Assembly: GCF_050947875.1 (NCBI RefSeq)
Contig: NC_134576.1
Coordinates: 55,060,255-55,124,254 of the forward strand
Length of the DNA stretch: 64,000 nucleotides
Reading direction: 5' to 3'
Origin: Dermacentor variabilis
Taxonomy: Eukaryota; Arthropoda; Arachnida; Ixodida; Ixodidae
The notes beneath the pieces are model-generated. The model was not told the origin of the DNA, ran no database searches, and was given only the letters and a program-made list of their open reading frames with translations. Positions 7,376-62,508 of this stretch are shown in pieces (position 1 is the first letter of the stretch; every line of letters starts with the position of its first letter). The position numbers were made by a program, and so were the translations under genes.

Positions 7376-7452
7376 GTTTGTTTGTTTGTTTGTTTGTTTG
7401 TTTGTTTGTTTGTTTGTTTGTTTGTTTGTTTGTTTGTTTGTTTGTTTGTTTT
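7376..7452. repeat. (GTTT)n tetranucleotide microsatellite
   Basis: About 19 GTTT units, directly preceded by a short GT tract. The open frames across it (FVCL or NKQT repeats) are artefacts of the repeat. The paralogous position in copy 2 holds a GT-rich tract instead. Confidence 0.97.
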
Positions 7453-8331
7453 CTTCAGTGAAACCTGGGGTCCACCTTTCTGGCTGATGCAACTTGAAAG
7501 GAACCCCGTGCCAGGCACAGGCACAATCCCAGACACAGTGCAGGTGCTCCTTCCGGGCTTCTTATCGTCGTGTGTTTCGAAATACTACAAGCATATGCGT
7601 GCTTACCGAACGGAACGAGTAGACAAGTGTTTGTCTTCTGCAACCGAAACGCTGAGCATACGATCAGGAACAGTACATGATCTGTGGTTGGAAACGTTCA
7701 AGCTTAGTCGGCGTTACTGATGTATCCTAGCAGTTTGTAGTATTCATTTTTTGTGAGTTATATTAACTTCAATTGATTCGAGGCCGTTTTAGTTTATAAT
7801 GCGGGGTTTTGCACAGCATGTTTAAATTTCCCGCGCTAGGCACGCCAATCAATCGCACCGCCTTACTGATGGCGTCATCGCAGAAGCGTCCCCGGTTCTC
7901 CCATTGTTCTGTTGCACACACGATACACCGGCCTATTCCAATACACCATACCTGCACTAGAGGCCGTGGACCCATGGCGCCGTAGTTGTCGCTGGCCCAC
8001 GGGATTCCGGGATTCCCGCTATAGAAACAAAGCCACGTGACCATAGCGAGACACCAAAGTTATCATTTTAGCCACAGGATGGCGCCACAAACCTAACGGG
8101 CAGTCAGGCATGGTACGTAGACTGTTGTTTCAAATTGGAAACGTTATAAGTAAAATCTATTGCGATTTAAAATAAAAGCTACATTGCGTACCTGTTATGC
8201 ATATAGGGAACCGTATTCTTTTATTGTAAAATTCGGCCAGGTATTTGAGAAATGCAGTTCTCCTTCGCACTTCGCTCGCTCCATATTGTAGGTTTGTTTC
8301 AAGCGGGTTACATGGAGACGTGAGCCATAGC
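7453..8331 (+). promoter_or_regulatory. U2 5' flank, shared between both U2 loci (promoter candidate)
   Basis: The ~880 bp upstream of U2 are recognisably the same in copy 2 (58920-59788). This includes the last ~65 bp before the RNA start, where an snRNA proximal sequence element would sit (around 8265-8295: cgcacttcgct.gctccat.ttgta in both copies). I do not know the tick PSE consensus, so the site is inferred from position and conservation only. No convincing protein gene is present. A minus-strand frame at 7769-8044 is only partly preserved in copy 2. Confidence 0.35.
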
Positions 8332-8370
8332 ATCGCTTCTCGGCCTATCGGCTAAGATCAAGTGTAGTAT
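8332..8370 (+). ncRNA. U2: U2 snRNA, 5' segment (nt 1-39), interrupted
   Basis: These 39 nt are the universally conserved U2 5' end: ATCGCTTCTCGGCC, then GGCTAAGATCAAGTG and the branch-point-recognition sequence GTAGTA, ending ...GTAGTAT. U2 pairs with the intron branch site in the spliceosome. The sequence stops exactly here and a LINE begins. The rest of U2 resumes at 13719. Compared with copy 2 this segment has the canonical G at position 31. As it stands the locus cannot make a normal U2 RNA. Confidence 0.93.
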
Positions 8371-8444
8371 ATCAAGTGCTTTTCACGTTGTATCATCAGC
8401 CTGGGCACCACGCATTGCGTCGTGGTTGCTTAGGTGAATCAGCC

Positions 8445-9692
8445 ATGGACAGACCAGCGCCTGCCCAACGCCCAACGAAAGCCCAGTGCTTTATCTTCAA
8501 TGTACCGGTTTCGACGCCGGTTGATGCCATCATCGACTCCATCGAAGAAGTCGTAGGTGCCGGAGGGTTGCAGTATCTGCAACATCACGGCGGCAACAAG
8601 TTCTTGGCAGCTGTCCGCTCCGCGGCTCAGGCAGCCAAGATGGCGGCAAAAGGTTCCCTGCTGCTCGCCAACAAGGTCGTACCGCTGGAACGCATGGGCA
8701 CTCCAGTGGTTTATGTGACGGTCTACCGTCTCCCACCCTGTGTCAGTGACGACGCACTGATTGCTGCACTTGCACCATATGGGAAGTGCCGAGGCATTTC
8801 CGACGTCGTTTTCAAGGACAGGACGGACATCAGCAATGGCAGCCGACTGGTCAAGCTCGAGATGGTCAAACCTCCACCGAATTTCATCATGGTGACTGGC
8901 TTTCGGGTAATGCTGGAATACAAAGGTATGAAGAGAGTGTGCTCCAAGTGCGGAGCAGAAGGTCATTTTGGGGCCACCTGCACATCAGCTCGATGCGCCC
9001 GATGTGCCATTTTCGGCCATGCGACTGCAACGTGCAACGCGCCATGCAGACGTTGTAATGGCGAGCACGCCACTGTTGACTGTGTGTTGCCACGTTCGTA
9101 CGCTGCTGCAGTGACACCAGTGACGCCCGCCCAGCCAGGACTGGGCGAGAATACTTCTGAAGAGGCAGCACAGACGCAAGCCACCGATCAACCAGGAAAA
9201 GAGCGTGCCCCAGAGGCGCCGACGCCAGCGTCCCCCGATGCCAGCGACGCTGCGTCTTCTCCCTCTACTGACGAAGAGAGCAACGAGACGCCACCTGCCA
9301 CAATGGCGTCGTCTGCCACCGAAGACGATGAAGAGCCTACATTAGACGCCCAGTCTACGCTATCACAGCGGGAACGGCTCCTTGCATGTGCTCCAACACC
9401 GAACGCTAGCGGGAACGCGGCTGGACGCCATCGCGGCCTCCCCGAAGTCGCGGCCGGTCCGTCGAGGATCACACCGGTTGGCAAGACAACGACCGCACTT
9501 GCGAGTGGTACTAGTACAGCGATGAATGAGAGACGCACGCGCTCGCAAATAGTGTCTGAAGAAGCCAAGAGAGTGCTCTCTTCAGAGAGTTCTACGTCAT
9601 CAGAACCAATGGCAACACCCTCCAAGAAATGCAAGAAAATGCCACGGGACACCACTACCATGGACGTTGTCTCCGATTCGGAGACGTACTAA
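8445..9692 (+). CDS. ORF1 protein of the U2-targeted LINE (RNA-binding, CCHC)
   Basis: This 415-residue protein would bind element RNA and form the ribonucleoprotein for retrotransposition. The start is the ATG at 8445, in good Kozak context (cagccATGG) and with the first plausible methionine (MDRPAPAQRPTKAQ). The frame is technically open further upstream but without an ATG. An N-terminal ~150-residue region (FIFNVPVSTPVDAIIDSIEE onward) looks like an RRM-type fold. It is followed at ~residues 165-215 by three zinc knuckles: CSKCGAEGHFGATC, CARCAIFGHATATC and CRRCNGEHATVDC. The C-terminal ~200 residues are low-complexity Ala/Thr/Pro/Ser/Glu-rich. It ends 348 nt before ORF2. ORF1 of Tx1-group elements typically carries CCHC knuckles. 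No disabling lesion is seen. Confidence 0.88.
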   Translation: MDRPAPAQRPTKAQCFIFNVPVSTPVDAIIDSIEEVVGAGGLQYLQHHGGNKFLAAVRSAAQAAKMAAKGSLLLANKVVPLERMGTPVVYVTVYRLPPCVSDDALIAALAPYGKCRGISDVVFKDRTDISNGSRLVKLEMVKPPPNFIMVTGFRVMLEYKGMKRVCSKCGAEGHFGATCTSARCARCAIFGHATATCNAPCRRCNGEHATVDCVLPRSYAAAVTPVTPAQPGLGENTSEEAAQTQATDQPGKERAPEAPTPASPDASDAASSPSTDEESNETPPATMASSATEDDEEPTLDAQSTLSQRERLLACAPTPNASGNAAGRHRGLPEVAAGPSRITPVGKTTTALASGTSTAMNERRTRSQIVSEEAKRVLSSESSTSSEPMATPSKKCKKMPRDTTTMDVVSDSETY

Positions 9693-10040
9693 CAATGGCG
9701 CCTTACACTGCATCTGCTGCCCGTAAGGGCTGCTTTTCCTTTCCTCCCCGCTACGAAGCTCACGCGGCGTTGACGGAACGGTGTTTGGCGCAGACATCGC
9801 GTTTCCGTCCCTGTGCGAACGTCTGCAACCTCGGTATTTTAGTACTCAGCTTGCTTCCGGCTAACTTGTGTGAAGAACGTGAACAGTGCCCGTGTCGCTT
9901 TCGCCGCTGTGATACTCCTAAGTCATTGCTGACTTTGCCGTGTTTTGGCTGTTGCACTGGTGTACGACGCCGATTCAGTTCGCAACTAGCTTGTGGTAAG
10001 CCATTTGTATTAGTCTATTTCTGTACGCAACCAACTCACC

Positions 10041-13000
10041 ATGTATTTGCACTTAATGACACTTAACGCACAAGGATTTCGTAGCATAGATAAGCAAAGG
10101 GAAGTAATCCATTTCGCTCGCGAGAAAAAAGTCGACCTCCTGTTTCTTCAGGAGTGTAACTTGAGAAACAAGCAGGAAGTTAAAAGATTTTGCGATGAAT
10201 TTTCTGTTAAAGCTTATTTTTCATATAGCCCCGGGAGATGTCGCGGTGTAGGAGTGGTGGTTTTTCGTAGGGTGCTTCTACATGGAAGTCACCGCCTTTT
10301 TGACTTGGAAGGTCGTGTAATAGCTTTTGATTTTTTCTGGGGTGAGAGGAAAGTTCGAGCATTGAATGTCTATGGACCCGCCGTATGGTCAGACCGCAAT
10401 GACTTCTTCGCGAGACTCTCCCCCTTTTTGTTAGACAACCACCCATTCTTTATCGTTGGCGATTTTAACTGTGTGCTCGACCCCATGCGCGACTCACGAG
10501 GGCCACGACAATACGCTTCCAATGCGCACGCAGCTGAATTATCTCGTATAGTGAAAGACTACAATTTATCGGATGCCTGGGTCCATATGCATGGCGGAAG
10601 CTTTGGCGCCACATGGCAGCAAAGGCAATCACAATGTCGTCTAGATCGAATGTATTTCCCCCCTGAATTAACAACGCAAATTGTCCAGTGCAGCATCCTC
10701 GATCTCCCCGCGGACGCCGGGCACATTTCAGATCATCGCCCTTTCGCTGTCATATTGAACCTCGAGGGAAGGCCAGGTGAACGCACTGACATGTGGAGAC
10801 TAGACATTGCTTCTTTGCGTGACCAGGCGACTCTAACCGAACTAAAAGCGTCAGTGGCTACAGCAGTTTGCGATTATGAATGCAATATCGAAGCCTGGGA
10901 TACTTTAAAGGAAAGGTGGAGGTCAGTATGCATAGCAGCTAGCAGGAAAAGGAAAAGAAAAGAGACCGAGCAGCTTTGTGAGTGCCTGAGAAGGATAAGA
11001 ATAGTACGAGACGGTACTTCACAAACACAGTTAATGCGCGAATACCTAGAATTTCAGCGTGAACGCTACCATAGACTTATGAGCTGGTACTCTCGCACCT
11101 CTGCAAAGGCGTGGATGACCAACAGGCCAATTTCCGACCCTGAGGTACTGCGGCTGGCTCGTGCGTCCAGCAGGAGGCAGAATGGCAGCTCTTTCATTGA
11201 AAGAGTTATTATAGAAGATGGCACAGAGAGTGGTGCGAGGCGAGATATCGAAAGAATTTTTTGGAACTGGTTCTCAGACGCATTTTCATCGGAAAAGATT
11301 TATAATGCAGAGCTATTGAGTGAAGAAATTTTAGACTTTTGCGCTGACCTACCTCAAGTAGAAGATACAGAAGGCCAGAATTTATTGTCTCCAACAAATC
11401 TGCAAGAAGTTTTTGATGTCATACGATCTATGAACAGCGGATCAACACCCGGTCCAGATGGCTTACCAGTCGAATTTTACCGATCTTGCTGGGAGGAAGT
11501 TGGCACTGCCTTAGTGTCGCTCCTTAACGGCATTCTTGCACGGGAAGGTATTCCTAAATCGTTTAATCGGGGACGCGTAATGCTCTTGCCAAAGCCAGAC
11601 TCCAACCTTGCAGAACCCTCATCCTGGAGGCCTATAACGCTGCTCAACACAGACTATAAAATATTGACAACCCTTCTTGTAAATCGCATGAAGATATTAT
11701 TGCCGAAAATAGTCAGTGTACATCAAACCTGTTCCGTGCCGGGTCGGAGTATATTTTCGTCTCTCAACTTAACACGTGATATCATACAATACACAACAGC
11801 GCGTGAAGCTTCAGGAGTATTAGTAAGCTTGGACCAAGCCAAAGCGTTTGACCGCTTAGAACGCCAGTACTTATTTGCGGCTTTGCGATGCTATAACTTC
11901 CCTGAAGAGTTTGTAAACATCCTGCGGATGTTGTATTCGCGAACAACAGCTGAGCTACTGCTTAACGGCATTCTAACACCTAGATTTGATGTGACAAGGG
12001 GAGTGCGGCAGGGTTGTCCTTTGTCACCCATATTGTTTGTGCTTGCGATTGACCCGTTGTTGAGGCGGTTTAGCGAGAGCCCGCTCATAAGAGGTCTTCC
12101 CATGCCGGGATCCGGGTGCATAAAAGTATCGGCGTATGCGGATGACATCACTTTGTTTTTACGGGATGGGGACAGTCTTGTAGAGGTACTTCGTATTTAT
12201 AATCAATATGCTTCAATGTCAGGGGGCAAAATAAATATGAGAAAATGTGAAGCATTAAATTTAGGTCGTGGCGCAATAACGCTACCAGGGGACATTAAAC
12301 AGACCGAGCATATGCAAATACTAGGTATCAAATTTTGTACAAGTGGTGTTTCACCTCACACGTGGCGAGAAATTGTCAGCTCCATTAAAGAACAGTCAGA
12401 AGCAGTGACTGCGTCGCCACTGCCGCTGGCAGAAAGGGCTTTCTTCATCAAGAACGTATTGTGCAGTAAACTATGGTTTGCTGCAAGGGTAGCTCTCCCG
12501 CCGTCACCAACAGTTCGAGTAGTAAACTCACTTATTTTCTCATGGTTCTGGCTAAACAAGACTCAATACGTAGCGCAGCAATTTTTGCGTCTGCCAAAAT
12601 CCAGCGGAGGATGGAGCTTGCCGTGCATAGTCACATTCGGTAGGCTGTTGTGCACTAAGTGTACATGTGATCTACTTGATGATGATGAGTACCCTGGTAG
12701 GCCACTGCTCCTTTATTGGCTGGGCCATTACCGTCGAACGCTTATGCCGCAGAGTACAGGCAACTTGCTTCCGACGGCAGTAACGCCAGCACCGCAGTAT
12801 GCGGCGGCTGCGCGCTTGCAAAGCCAGCTTGTAGAACTAAGAATTACAAAGTGGCGTGCGACACCAGTTTCCAGGCTTTGTGAAATGTTGTGTGAGACAG
12901 CTGTACCTCCACGGACAGCTACTACACAAACATGGACAGCTGTGCTTTCACCTGATTTGCCCTCTCAAGTGAAGGACTTTCATTGGCAATATCAGTGGGG

Positions 13001-13424
13001 CATTCTACCTACAAAAGACAGGCTTGAACGCTGGCATATGGTAGCGAATGATAAATGCATATATTGCGCACAAACAGAGACCAACGCGCATGTAGTTAAG
13101 GACTGCGTTGTAGCACGCACCTTCTGGAAGCTAGTTGCAAGAATGTTCGGAATATCCATCGTGCGGCCACCACAACGCCGAGATCGGTTTTCGAGTCTCG
13201 TGTACTACAGCGCTAGCTACATTTTGTGGTGCTTCCGTAACATCGCAGAACGATCTCGACAGGCACATAGAGCAATGTACCCCAGAATGCTGAAACTGCG
13301 GGTGTTAATATGGGGTCATCTTGAAGAACAGTTGTTCAAACTCGGTGAAGTCGAGTTTCTTCGCCGCTGGTCTACGCGGTACATAACCGTCTCCCGAGGC
13401 AAAGTCTTTCTACAGCCAGAATAA
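10041..13424 (+). CDS. ORF2 protein of the U2-targeted LINE (APE endonuclease-RT)
   Basis: This 1127-residue intact protein would nick U2 DNA and reverse-transcribe element RNA at the nick. An N-terminal APE-type endonuclease (~1-235) shows the catalytic Asn in LNAQGF, Glu in FLQEC, VGDFNC, and the terminal SDHRPF with the catalytic His. The RT (~450-760) shows SWRPITLLNTDYKIL, LVSLDQAKAFDRLE, RQGCPLSPILF and the catalytic YADD at residues 699-702. Near residue 1010 there is a Cys/His cluster, CIYCAQTETNAHVVKDC (CX2CX7HX4C), as in L1/Tx1 ORF2. There is no RNase H domain. Start ATG 10041 sits in context caccATGT. An L1/Tx1-type ORF2 with a U2 insertion site points to a Keno-like element; exact clade placement needs a tree. 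Confidence 0.92.
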   Translation: MYLHLMTLNAQGFRSIDKQREVIHFAREKKVDLLFLQECNLRNKQEVKRFCDEFSVKAYFSYSPGRCRGVGVVVFRRVLLHGSHRLFDLEGRVIAFDFFWGERKVRALNVYGPAVWSDRNDFFARLSPFLLDNHPFFIVGDFNCVLDPMRDSRGPRQYASNAHAAELSRIVKDYNLSDAWVHMHGGSFGATWQQRQSQCRLDRMYFPPELTTQIVQCSILDLPADAGHISDHRPFAVILNLEGRPGERTDMWRLDIASLRDQATLTELKASVATAVCDYECNIEAWDTLKERWRSVCIAASRKRKRKETEQLCECLRRIRIVRDGTSQTQLMREYLEFQRERYHRLMSWYSRTSAKAWMTNRPISDPEVLRLARASSRRQNGSSFIERVIIEDGTESGARRDIERIFWNWFSDAFSSEKIYNAELLSEEILDFCADLPQVEDTEGQNLLSPTNLQEVFDVIRSMNSGSTPGPDGLPVEFYRSCWEEVGTALVSLLNGILAREGIPKSFNRGRVMLLPKPDSNLAEPSSWRPITLLNTDYKILTTLLVNRMKILLPKIVSVHQTCSVPGRSIFSSLNLTRDIIQYTTAREASGVLVSLDQAKAFDRLERQYLFAALRCYNFPEEFVNILRMLYSRTTAELLLNGILTPRFDVTRGVRQGCPLSPILFVLAIDPLLRRFSESPLIRGLPMPGSGCIKVSAYADDITLFLRDGDSLVEVLRIYNQYASMSGGKINMRKCEALNLGRGAITLPGDIKQTEHMQILGIKFCTSGVSPHTWREIVSSIKEQSEAVTASPLPLAERAFFIKNVLCSKLWFAARVALPPSPTVRVVNSLIFSWFWLNKTQYVAQQFLRLPKSSGGWSLPCIVTFGRLLCTKCTCDLLDDDEYPGRPLLLYWLGHYRRTLMPQSTGNLLPTAVTPAPQYAAAARLQSQLVELRITKWRATPVSRLCEMLCETAVPPRTATTQTWTAVLSPDLPSQVKDFHWQYQWGILPTKDRLERWHMVANDKCIYCAQTETNAHVVKDCVVARTFWKLVARMFGISIVRPPQRRDRFSSLVYYSASYILWCFRNIAERSRQAHRAMYPRMLKLRVLIWGHLEEQLFKLGEVEFLRRWSTRYITVSRGKVFLQPE

Positions 13425-13716
13425 TGCTCAATTCGGTTGCCCAAGTTCAAACTGTGTCTGTATGTGCCCCGAGTACCTTTCATAAATTCGAGGCCGACAA
13501 TAATGCTTTTGCGTGGATGCGGTAATGAGTTTTGTTGTTGTTGTTGTTGTTGTGTGTGACAAAGCCAGTGTCAAGAAGACACCATTTATTATTTCATTTG
13601 TTAATCTTTTTTGTTTACAACAAGTATGATGTATTACATGTGATGTACCTCATATTGTACTTTTCGTTCCTGCCACAGCTGTAATTGTGCCTACGGGTGA
13701 ATAAATTTCCTTGTCA
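13425..13716 (+). other. 3' UTR of the U2-targeted LINE
   Basis: This 292-nt 3' UTR has a (GTT)n run at 13531-13553 and AATAAA near 13700. It ends ...AAATTTCCTTGTCA directly before U2 nt 38-40, without a poly(A) or simple-repeat tail. The last ~27 nt, including the small cctacgggtg hairpin, are identical to the 3' end of the truncated copy at 28241. Confidence 0.85.
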
Positions 13717-13718
13717 AT

Positions 13719-13863
13719 CTGTTCTTATCAGCTTAATATCTGATACGGCCCTATTATGGGTCTAACGATATTAATCCTATTTTTGTAAGGCGGCGCTAGG
13801 ACGGGGCTTGCCCCTCTAGTGCCACGGGTTGTCCTGGTATTGCACTGCAGCCGGGTACAGCCC
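13719..13863 (+). ncRNA. U2: U2 snRNA, 3' segment (nt 40 to end), interrupted
   Basis: The segment resumes U2 at CTGTTCTTATCAGCTTAATA. It then shows the stem IIb sequence (GGCCC...GGGTC), an Sm-type ATTTTTG, stem-loop III (GGCGCT...AGTGCC, one G-T pair) and stem-loop IV (CCTGGTATTGCA...CCGGG). It differs from copy 2 at only a few positions, each keeping pairing or falling in loops, so the locus looked functional when invaded. The LINE now separates it from its promoter and 5' end. Confidence 0.92.
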
Positions 13864-13877
13864 ACACCATAGAATCT

Positions 13878-13886
13878 AAAATCAGA
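13878..13886 (+). promoter_or_regulatory. snRNA 3' box (3'-end formation signal)
   Basis: AAAATCAGA fits the AAARNNAGA core of the metazoan Pol II snRNA 3' box and lies 15 nt after the inferred U2 3' end. The equivalent in copy 2 is AAAATAAGA at 59987. Conservation at both loci at the right distance supports the call. Confidence 0.55.
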
Positions 13887-15142
13887 ACCAATGTTGCTGT
13901 GCACTTTTGGAGTGCATGATTCACACCCCGTCTAGGGCGTGGCTATGCGACCAAGATATGCTCTCGCGTAGCTGCCGCCCCCTCCCCCGTTGAGTTAGAG
14001 GAAAGACGGCGCACATCGAGCCACTATGCTTCGTGGTAACCCGCTCGCGCTTTCCCTCGCATTCGGTGCATACCGGCGGGATGGGTCGTGCATTTAATCC
14101 TAGTACAGCTTCTCGTGTTTCTCACTTGTGTGCCCACACTAACGAGGGACGACTGGTCACAACAAAATGTCGCAGCTTCGCCTGAAAGGCGAAACATTGT
14201 GATAGCAAAGTATGATTCACCTAGGTGAAGCAAGTTTCGTAGTTTTATCCGCCGTATAAATTGCAGTGAACATTCGCTCACTACTGTTAGAATTAAGTTT
14301 ACAAGCATGCTGTCGAGAGCGTACGGTGAAACACGAACACATCCCCGTAGGTGACCGCGGGCACTCACTGTCACAACTGGGGTGTGGTGAAGGACGCCAG
14401 CAGCAGCGGCGAGTGAATTCACTTTCGTGCTGCGTGTCACTTCAGCGCAAGCCCGGCACTCGAGAACACAGCGCACCCGAAGCCATCAGCGATTTCGTGT
14501 CGGCTAGCCTTTTGCTTCCACCGCAGATTAATTTCCACATAGGGCGCGTGCGGCCGCTTTCAGCCTTGCCATGTGCAAACGCGTCCGGAGTAGGAGACGC
14601 GAATTAATCAGCCCCCTTGCGCGCTCATCTCTCCACTCTGCTACTTAGCGCTCGCAAGAACACGGCGTGCAACCTCTTCCCCCTCCCCCCGCGCACTCAT
14701 GAAGACGCCTCACATCAAGGCACCAGCTTCCCCTCACCCTCGCTCACTTTCCCGTGCGTCTATCGCAAGCATACGGCGGGCGGCCGCGATCTTATCGCAC
14801 GTGGACTCGATAAGGGACCTGACGGCGACGTCGACGACGGCGGAAATTAATTAGCCTCGACTGTCCATATTATTGTCATACCAACGAAACACTGCATAGC
14901 ACGCTCCAGCAAGGCAGGCTCCGAATAGAAAACTACGCGGTGCATAATATGTCGATACGAATGCGCGATATGCTGCGCCGACACCGCGCAAGCCAGGTGA
15001 AATCGCCGCTGAATTTTCCGCTAGATGTGACGACCCTGCTCCGCTTCGGAGGCCATTCTCATTAGCGCGGGGCACGAAATGTGAGGAGGTGCAACCTTCT
15101 TCGCAAACAACCGCATGTAATTTAACCTTCTGCGCCCATGGC
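13887..15142. other. U2 3' flank, duplicated, no gene recognised
   Basis: 13887-13945 and 13951-14297 align with copy 2, where a P-like transposon splits the block at CCAAGAT. About 14298-15080 has no counterpart in copy 2, and 15081-15142 aligns again (62452-62508). A minus-strand frame at 14851-15171 and frames around 14024-14476 have no recognisable domains and are not called genes. Confidence 0.7.
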
Positions 15143-58857: not shown

Positions 58858-58916
58858 GTCCGTGTATGTGTGGGTGTGAGTGTGAGTGCGTGTGTGCGTG
58901 CGTGCGTGTGTGTTTC
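58858..58916. repeat. GT-rich microsatellite
   Basis: Imperfect (GT)n/(GTGC)n tract at the position where copy 1 carries the hairpin insert and the GTTT tract. Confidence 0.9.
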
Positions 58917-59788
58917 TTTTCTTCAGTGAAACCTGGCGATAGCCTTTATGGCTGATGCAACTTGAAAGGAATCCCGTGCAACCTACCAGGCACAGTGCAG
59001 GTGTCCTTCCGGGCTTCTTATCGCCGTGTGTTTCGAAATACTAAAAGTATATGCGTGCTTACCGAACGGAACGAGTAGACAAGTGTAGACTAGAGTAGAC
59101 AACTGAAACGCTGAGCATACGATCAGGAACACTACAAGATCTGTGCTTGGAAACGTGCAACCTTAGTCGGCGTTATTGAAGTATCCCATCGGTTCGTAGT
59201 ATTTATTTTTTGTGAGTTATATTAACTTCAATTGGTTTCAGACCGTTTTAATTTATAAAGGCGTGGTTTCGCACAGCATGTATAATTTCCCGCTTTAGGC
59301 ACGCCGGTCGATCGCAGCGCCGTACTGATGGCGTCATCGCATAAGCGTCCCCGGTTCTCCCATTGTTCTGTTGCATGCACGATACACCCGCCTATTCCAA
59401 TACACCATACCTCCACTAGAGGCCGTGGACCCATGGCGCCGTAGTTGTCGCTGGCCCACGGGATTCCGGGATTCCCGCTATATAAACAAAGCCACTTGAC
59501 TAGCGAGACACCTAAGTTATCATTTTAGCCACAGGATGGCGCCACAAACCAAACGGGCAGTCAGGCATGGTACGTAGATTGTTGTTTCAAATTGGAAACG
59601 TTATAAGTAAAATCTATTGCGATTTAAAATAAAAGTTATGTTGCGTTCCTATTATTCATATAGGGAACCGTATTTTTTTATTGTCAAAGTTGGCCAGTTA
59701 TTTGAGAAATGCAGTTCTCTCTCGCACTTCGCTGGCTCCATGTTGTACGTTTGTTTGAAGTGGGTTACATCGAGACGTCATCTATGGC

Positions 59789-59972
59789 ATCGCTTCTCGG
59801 CCTATCGGCTAAGATCAAATGTAGTATCTGTTCTTATCAGCTTAATATCTGATACGGCCCTATTATGGGTCTTACGATATTAATCCTATTTTTGTAAGGC
59901 GGCGCTAGGACGGGGCTTGCCCCTCCAGCGCCACGGGTTGTCCTGGTATTGCACTGCAGCCAGGTACAGCCC
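59789..59972 (+). ncRNA. U2: U2 snRNA, uninterrupted copy
   Basis: A 184-nt U2 snRNA, close to the usual metazoan length. Landmarks: ATCGCTTCTCGGCC 5' stem-loop, GTAGTA branch-point recognition (nt 33-38 region), CTGTTCTTATCAGCTTAATA, stem IIb GGCCC...GGGTC, Sm-type ATTTTTG, stem-loop III with perfectly pairing GGCGCT...AGCGCC, and stem-loop IV CCTGG...CCAGG. It differs from canonical U2 by A instead of G at nt 31 (ATCAAATGTAGTA), next to the branch-point-recognition bases, so it may be a variant or early pseudogene. A 3' box follows at 59987. The flanks match the U2 locus at 8332-13863, giving the empty site for the LINE. Confidence 0.93.
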
Positions 59973-59986
59973 ACACTATAATATCT

Positions 59987-62103: not shown

Positions 62104-62508
62104 ACCAAGATGCTCTCGCGTAGCTGCCGCCCCCTCCCCCGTTGAGTTAGAGGAAAGACGGCGCACATCGAGCCACTGTGCTTCTTGGTAACCCGCCCGT
62201 ATTTTACCTCGCATTCGGTGCATACCGGCGGGAGGTTCGTGCATTTAGTCCTAGTACATCTTCTCGTGTTTCTCACTTGTGTGCCCACACTAACGAGGGA
62301 CGACTGGTCACAACAAAAAGTCGCACCTTCGCCTGAAAGGCGAAACATTGTGATAGCAAAGTATGATTTACCTAGGTGAAGCAAGTTTCGTAGTTTTATC
62401 CGCCGTATAAATTGCAGTGAACATTCGCTCACTACTGTTAGAATTAAGTTTGTGATGAGGTGCTTTCGCAAACAACCGCATGTAATTTAGCCTTCTCCGC
62501 CCCTGGCC

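Follow-up and report, generated by a model that had tools for sequence, protein, structure and literature searches.

A U2-associated APE-type LINE in the tick Dermacentor variabilis, with U2 sequence at the 5' ends of off-target copies

A U2 gene split by a two-ORF LINE

We considered a stretch of 64,000 nucleotides from the tick Dermacentor variabilis (assembly GCF_050947875.1, contig NC_134576.1, positions 55,060,255 to 55,124,254; hereafter the window), in which a U2 small nuclear RNA (snRNA) gene is split by a long interspersed element (LINE) of about 5.35 kb, with two open reading frames (ORFs) and an endonuclease of the apurinic/apyrimidinic type (APE). This arrangement had been proposed in an initial annotation made from the sequence alone, the coordinates of which proved correct, including U2 nt 40 at 13719. 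All features described here lie on the forward strand. U2 nt 1-39 occupy 8332..8370; this half alone scores 40.8 bits against Rfam U2 (E 5e-07), below the gathering score of 46, and is 97.5% identical to 59788-59827 of an intact U2 gene (59789..59979, Rfam U2 167.7 bits) that offers an empty site for comparison. Downstream of the LINE, U2 restarts at 13717 (nt 38) and runs to its end at about 13870 (13717..13870, Rfam U2 106.5 bits), and nt 38-39 (AT) are found at both LINE ends. The regions 8132-8370 (90%) and 13717-13957 (92%) match the intact locus, 51 kb away in the same window, and 7439-8370 aligns with 58907-59827 at 88.7% identity over 937 bp. Since about 900 bp of upstream DNA and the downstream DNA match the intact locus, this is a genuine U2 locus and not a captured piece. 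The two U2 units also have common flanks (13950-14300 and 62104-62451); in the intact unit, about 2 kb of other sequence comes before the shared flank is found again.

The LINE body (8371..13716) starts with ATCAAGTGCTTTTCACG and ends with TTGTCA, and both its 3' end and its 5' junction recur in other copies. ORF1 (8445..9692, from an ATG at 8445, 415 aa) contains three CCHC-type knuckles, read by eye, and has no match in Pfam at E 1e-3. ORF2 (10041..13424, 1127 aa) encodes an APE domain (residues 6-232, PF03372), a reverse transcriptase (RT; 517-764, PF00078) and a zf-RVT domain (958-1029, PF13966). Both ORFs are open, as had been claimed. The 3' untranslated region (UTR; 13425..13716) carries a GTT microsatellite and ends in AATAAATTTCCTTGTCA, without a poly(A) tail.

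The domain content bears on the identity of the element. Utopia, a group of U2-targeting elements with a restriction-like endonuclease, uses the identical U2 site and is listed for Ixodes scapularis in the excerpt consulted of PMC4640811. ORF2 has an N-terminal APE and no other endonuclease match in Pfam at E 1e-3, and the tick element has two ORFs, so that the chance of its being a Utopia is close to nil; this identity was ruled out by the ORF2 domains.

The best solved relatives of ORF2 are human L1 ORF2p (E 7.6e-68). Among proteins, ORF1 is 95% identical to one of Dermacentor andersoni and 85% identical, over its full length, to one of D. silvarum. ORF2 has 99 relatives, the closest named ones being from Ixodes, Haemaphysalis and Rhipicephalus (36-52% identity; the best match of all 99 has 48%); 7,990 candidates were scored and, unlike in the ORF1 search, none of the proteins returned was named as Dermacentor. 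In the RT tree the window element falls in a clade of 26 rows (support 100/99) whose named members are all hard ticks, with a soft-tick row (P0024) and the fish rows outside it. No ORF2 relatives were found in viral contigs.

U2 junctions and U2 heads in other copies

Using the 3' UTR as a query, we obtained 41 rows (40 of 359 candidates were scored), ranked by likeness to the window copy, which favours its own subfamily; 30 were fetched and 11 of the 41 left unread. A 5' query likewise gave 41 rows, 30 read and 11 unread, and all copy counts for this genome of 2.48 Gb are lower bounds. The 3' end TTGTCA is present in 29 of the 30 fetched copies, L023 having GTGTCA. The copies divide into two subfamilies (split support 0.998): A, with 12 of the 30 including the window copy (identity averages 0.979 across the element's last part), and B, with the remaining 18 (identity 0.954 within B and 0.934 between A and B, about 6.6% diverged; the tree is unrooted). 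Identity to the window copy is about 97-99% in subfamily A, with 95.9% for a fragment in L040, and by this measure the subfamily is young. The earlier view that the LINE is active or was so recently agrees with this identity, with the off-target copy L033, in which both ORFs are open, and with a ratio of nonsynonymous to synonymous differences (pN/pS) from the window ORF2 of 0.22-0.33 over the best-aligned stretch (nine comparisons of eight elements, L003 and L033 being one element). In the remaining copies examined, the ORFs are interrupted or truncated.

Three of the 12 subfamily-A copies, namely the window copy (L001), L004 and L005, join U2 at the identical base (TTGTCA|ATCTGTTCTTATCAG), and this junction upholds the suggestion of a U2-associated APE-type LINE in a tick. 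As two other copies enter U2 at exactly the base used in the window, the site is not a matter of chance. The other nine lie outside U2, where a majority of copies at U2 had been looked for, and U2 was found at the 3' side of none of the 18 subfamily-B copies read. The word ATCT, which we take to be the cut-site word of U2, directly follows six of the nine off-target A copies, and at least three of its four letters match in eight of nine; six of nine has a chance probability of 3e-13 under uniform base use. In L033, a target duplication of 9-12 bp starts with ATCTG (the final three bases of the duplication could equally belong to the head described below), and the pre-insertion site, GAAGT^ATCTG, is like that of U2, GTAGT^ATCTG.

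With nine of 12 copies outside U2, one might think of a generalist L1-like element that once fell into U2 by chance. We give this hardly any credence, for there are three same-base insertions in a gene whose scored matches in a profile search of the genome (at least 46, of 92,623 candidates) sum to about 9 kb of 2.48 Gb; this count is a lower bound, as the window's own U2 3' half is missing from the scored matches. The ATCT bias and the U2 heads of off-target copies speak against it as well, and such a chance insertion was ruled out by the repeated U2 junction. The initial annotation had regarded full-length copies in unrelated sequence, with the window copy alone in U2, as a sign of coincidence. 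The first part of that picture does occur, twice; against coincidence stand the U2 piece that each of these copies bears at its 5' end and the presence in U2 of two more copies, both damaged. We hold with high confidence that the LINE is U2-targeting, and its specificity, judged from the insertion sequences, is real yet leaky.

Twenty-five of the 46 U2 matches score well below intact U2, at 93-140 bits. Of these, 24 measure 165-189 nt, with a length of exactly 180 in many cases, and further interrupted U2 genes or a repeat derived from U2 may be among them. A U2 copy in L040:4500-5100 (C3:69.84 Mb), possibly a decayed gene, has an altered branch-point-binding region (GATCATCCGTAGTATCTTTTC).

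Only two off-target A copies, L033 and L035, were found to reach the 5' end, the rest being 5'-truncated (for example L037 at q129 and L036 at q307), and both carry a head of U2 sequence although they lie outside U2. The head of L033 is U2 nt 11-39 and its junction with the LINE, GTAGTAT|ATCAAGTGC, is that of the window copy, which indicates that it derives from a U2-LINE junction. The head of L035 runs from nt 11 to about nt 34. L033 has the variant GGCCTATCGGCT, as in both C9 U2 genes of the window (TATCGG), and L035 the variant GGCCTTTTGGCT, as in the C7 and C3 U2 genes read (TTTTGG, not TATCGG); this difference indicates two different U2 source genes. Altogether, three of the 30 5' ends read have U2 heads (the window copy, L033 and L035).

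A proposed cycle, a sister subfamily and an array of U2 heads

From these junctions and heads we infer a cycle with three steps: promoter use, nicking and annealing. A LINE resident in a U2 gene would be transcribed from the host snRNA promoter, giving an RNA that begins with U2 sequence. The ORF2 protein would then nick a different U2 gene on its bottom strand, between nt 37 and nt 38 (GTAGT^ATCTG), and use the nick to prime reverse transcription. Where the target is a true one, the U2 head with which the complementary DNA (cDNA) ends would pair with the upstream U2 DNA and yield an exact U2-LINE-U2 arrangement in which the head is not doubled, whereas at a wrong site, usually an ATCT-like one, pairing would be impossible and the head would stay as visible extra sequence. 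The window copy, which landed in U2, has a single head, as this annealing model expects. We consider that such co-transcription with the host U2 gene and head annealing probably took place.

Several points weigh against this reading. Among the three U2 insertions, only the window copy combines an upstream U2 half with a full-length body: in L004 the LINE is 5'-truncated at q501 and has fused with a different LINE, and L005 is fragmented and lacks the U2 5' half. Clear target duplications were seen in just one or two of the nine off-target A copies, and that of L002 (13 bp) has one mismatch and lies 22 bp from the LINE. U2 heads are known from just two off-target copies, and both begin at nt 11; since the transcript itself would start at nt 1, processing, RT drop-off or trimming of the ends has to be assumed. 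The L033 head differs from the window head at two positions. The head of L035 stops short of the insertion site, near nt 34, which slightly lowers our confidence in the cycle; its link to the LINE is unlike that of the window copy, and, its variant being the common U2 form, this head may be an old one. An alignment of the upstream regions revealed no promoter element. An Rfam search to E 10 for a ribozyme like that of hepatitis delta virus (HDV) at the U2/LINE junction (8250-8600) gave only U2 and two weak snoRNA matches, and the fold of 8332-8450 is unremarkable (z -1.82).

The heads can be explained in two other ways. The U2 head may be a fixed piece of the 5' UTR, captured once and inherited since, in which case transcription would not renew it from the resident U2 gene. 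Indeed, L033 and the window copy are nearly alike in head and junction, and the element's own start, ATCAAGTG, echoes U2 nt 26-33 like a retained old head. L035, with another U2 variant and a different junction, does not fit such inheritance, nor do the 39 nt of the window, which adjoin about 900 bp of genuine U2 upstream DNA without a break, and we find this explanation unlikely. Alternatively, the RT could have switched templates onto free U2 snRNA, template switching being known as the origin of U6/L1 chimeras, and the early end of the L035 head agrees with this. A switch to free U2 RNA should place the join at the 3' end of U2 or close to it, and L033 reproduces the DNA junction of the window copy exactly, at the insertion site (U2 nt 39); we judge this second route very improbable.

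Subfamily B has a constant head that is not U2, at a site that we call X (TGATCTCGTTTTGTTCTC^GCAACTTGTCTG; seen in L056, L058, L063, L067, L070, L072, L044, L026 and others). A TTTTGTTCTCGCAAC-like head, with at most two differences, precedes the element at 14 of the 30 5' ends read, six of them on C8. These six near-identical ends lie at C8:87.18-88.12 Mb with a spacing of 186-191 kb and are likely one duplicated locus, a large tandem segmental duplication. At five further ends of the 30, the 3' end of one LINE is linked to the 5' end of the next through GCAA-type sequence, one more has an inverted neighbour, and the other seven are of different kinds. L044 and L026, with different truncation points, join the identical position of X, and upstream pieces of 72-404 bp (68-89% identity) are common to L044, L026, L048 and L047; these features make X, as far as flanking sequence can tell, probably the target of subfamily B. 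X could also be the subfamily's own 5' end, as three B copies (L057, L063 and L072) have X-like heads with flanks that look unrelated by eye, a parallel to the U2 heads in A. Rfam gave no convincing family for X in L044, L048, L026 and L047. If X is a target, subfamily B possibly represents a target switch.

U2 heads also occur as an array on C7, at about 103.5085-103.512 Mb (L039:6040 to L032:490), where a unit of about 36 bp is matched 97 times in tandem within about 3.4 kb; by eye, the unit consists of U2 nt 4-38 and one extra T, and the spacing is 36 in 54 of 96 gaps. The array precedes a LINE of a second, related family, with ORF1 open and ORF2 broken, that has no nucleotide match to the window LINE. 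Its final unit is genuine U2 ending in ...GTAGT, the cut site, and is followed by the second-family LINE, which is fused to a 5'-truncated window-type LINE that itself runs into a U2 3' half. The U2 upstream region was not seen 5' of the array in the upstream alignment, and Rfam, searched to E 10 for an HDV-like ribozyme in L032:380-720, gave only U2 and weak unrelated families. The array, a single locus, is consistent with heads having been duplicated at that same U2 site and then multiplied at the DNA level. We dropped the idea that 97 units stand for 97 rounds of retrotransposition: the variant units are spaced by irregular multiples of about 36 bp, a pattern that duplication of DNA in blocks would explain.

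Significance and comparison with known systems

These elements bear on two questions: how a LINE can persist in an essential gene of low copy number, and how site-specific LINEs change target. The sequence of the source gene is seemingly written on the 5' ends of escaped copies, which allows both source and cycle to be followed through sequence; the two sister subfamilies, which differ in their sites, lend themselves to direct comparison. It is an even bet, in our view, that ticks harbour a lineage of U2 promoter-driven LINEs in which the front of the RNA is copied from the resident gene, so that heads record the source, pile up and change with the target, subfamily B being an early target switch. 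Among the listings of open-access papers seen, we met no description of an APE-type LINE in U2 genes of ticks, nor of LINE copies with U2 heads (subscription papers and Repbase being outside the scope of this search). The kind of element is already known; as far as those listings go, the novelty lies in the tick lineage, in its escaped copies with U2 heads, in a sister subfamily that has another site, and in the array of U2 heads.

R2, which inserts into 28S rRNA genes, has another endonuclease and another target gene, and possesses an HDV-like ribozyme, none of which type was matched in the tick LINE. The cycle proposed here would otherwise work alike: according to the excerpt consulted of PMC3774820, R2 is co-transcribed with its host gene, so that its RNA carries upstream target sequence able to anneal to the target, its 5' junctions show tandem duplications of upstream target sequence, and the same heteroduplex model has been proposed for it.

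The excerpt consulted of PMC4640811 describes two groups at the U2 site, Utopia and Keno, with a common 3' flanking U2 sequence that starts at nt 39 for the Utopia of Phytophthora. Utopia resembles the tick LINE in its U2 site and in that its leaky families use U2-like words such as TGTAGTATCTG, and differs in having a restriction-like endonuclease and generally one protein, against APE and two ORFs here. Keno, a U2-specific member of the Tx1 clade with APE, is reported there from frogs, fish, lancelet and hydra; ticks are not named among its hosts in that excerpt, and in the tick most copies read are off target, two of them U2-headed. The likeness lies in an ORF2 with APE and RT, a separate ORF1, and a U2 3' flank that starts at nt 38/39 (AT on both sides) in three copies. 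With APE, RT, two ORFs and the same U2 site, the Keno/Tx1 assignment of the initial annotation is plausible, and the tick LINE is Keno-like in its anatomy and in its site.

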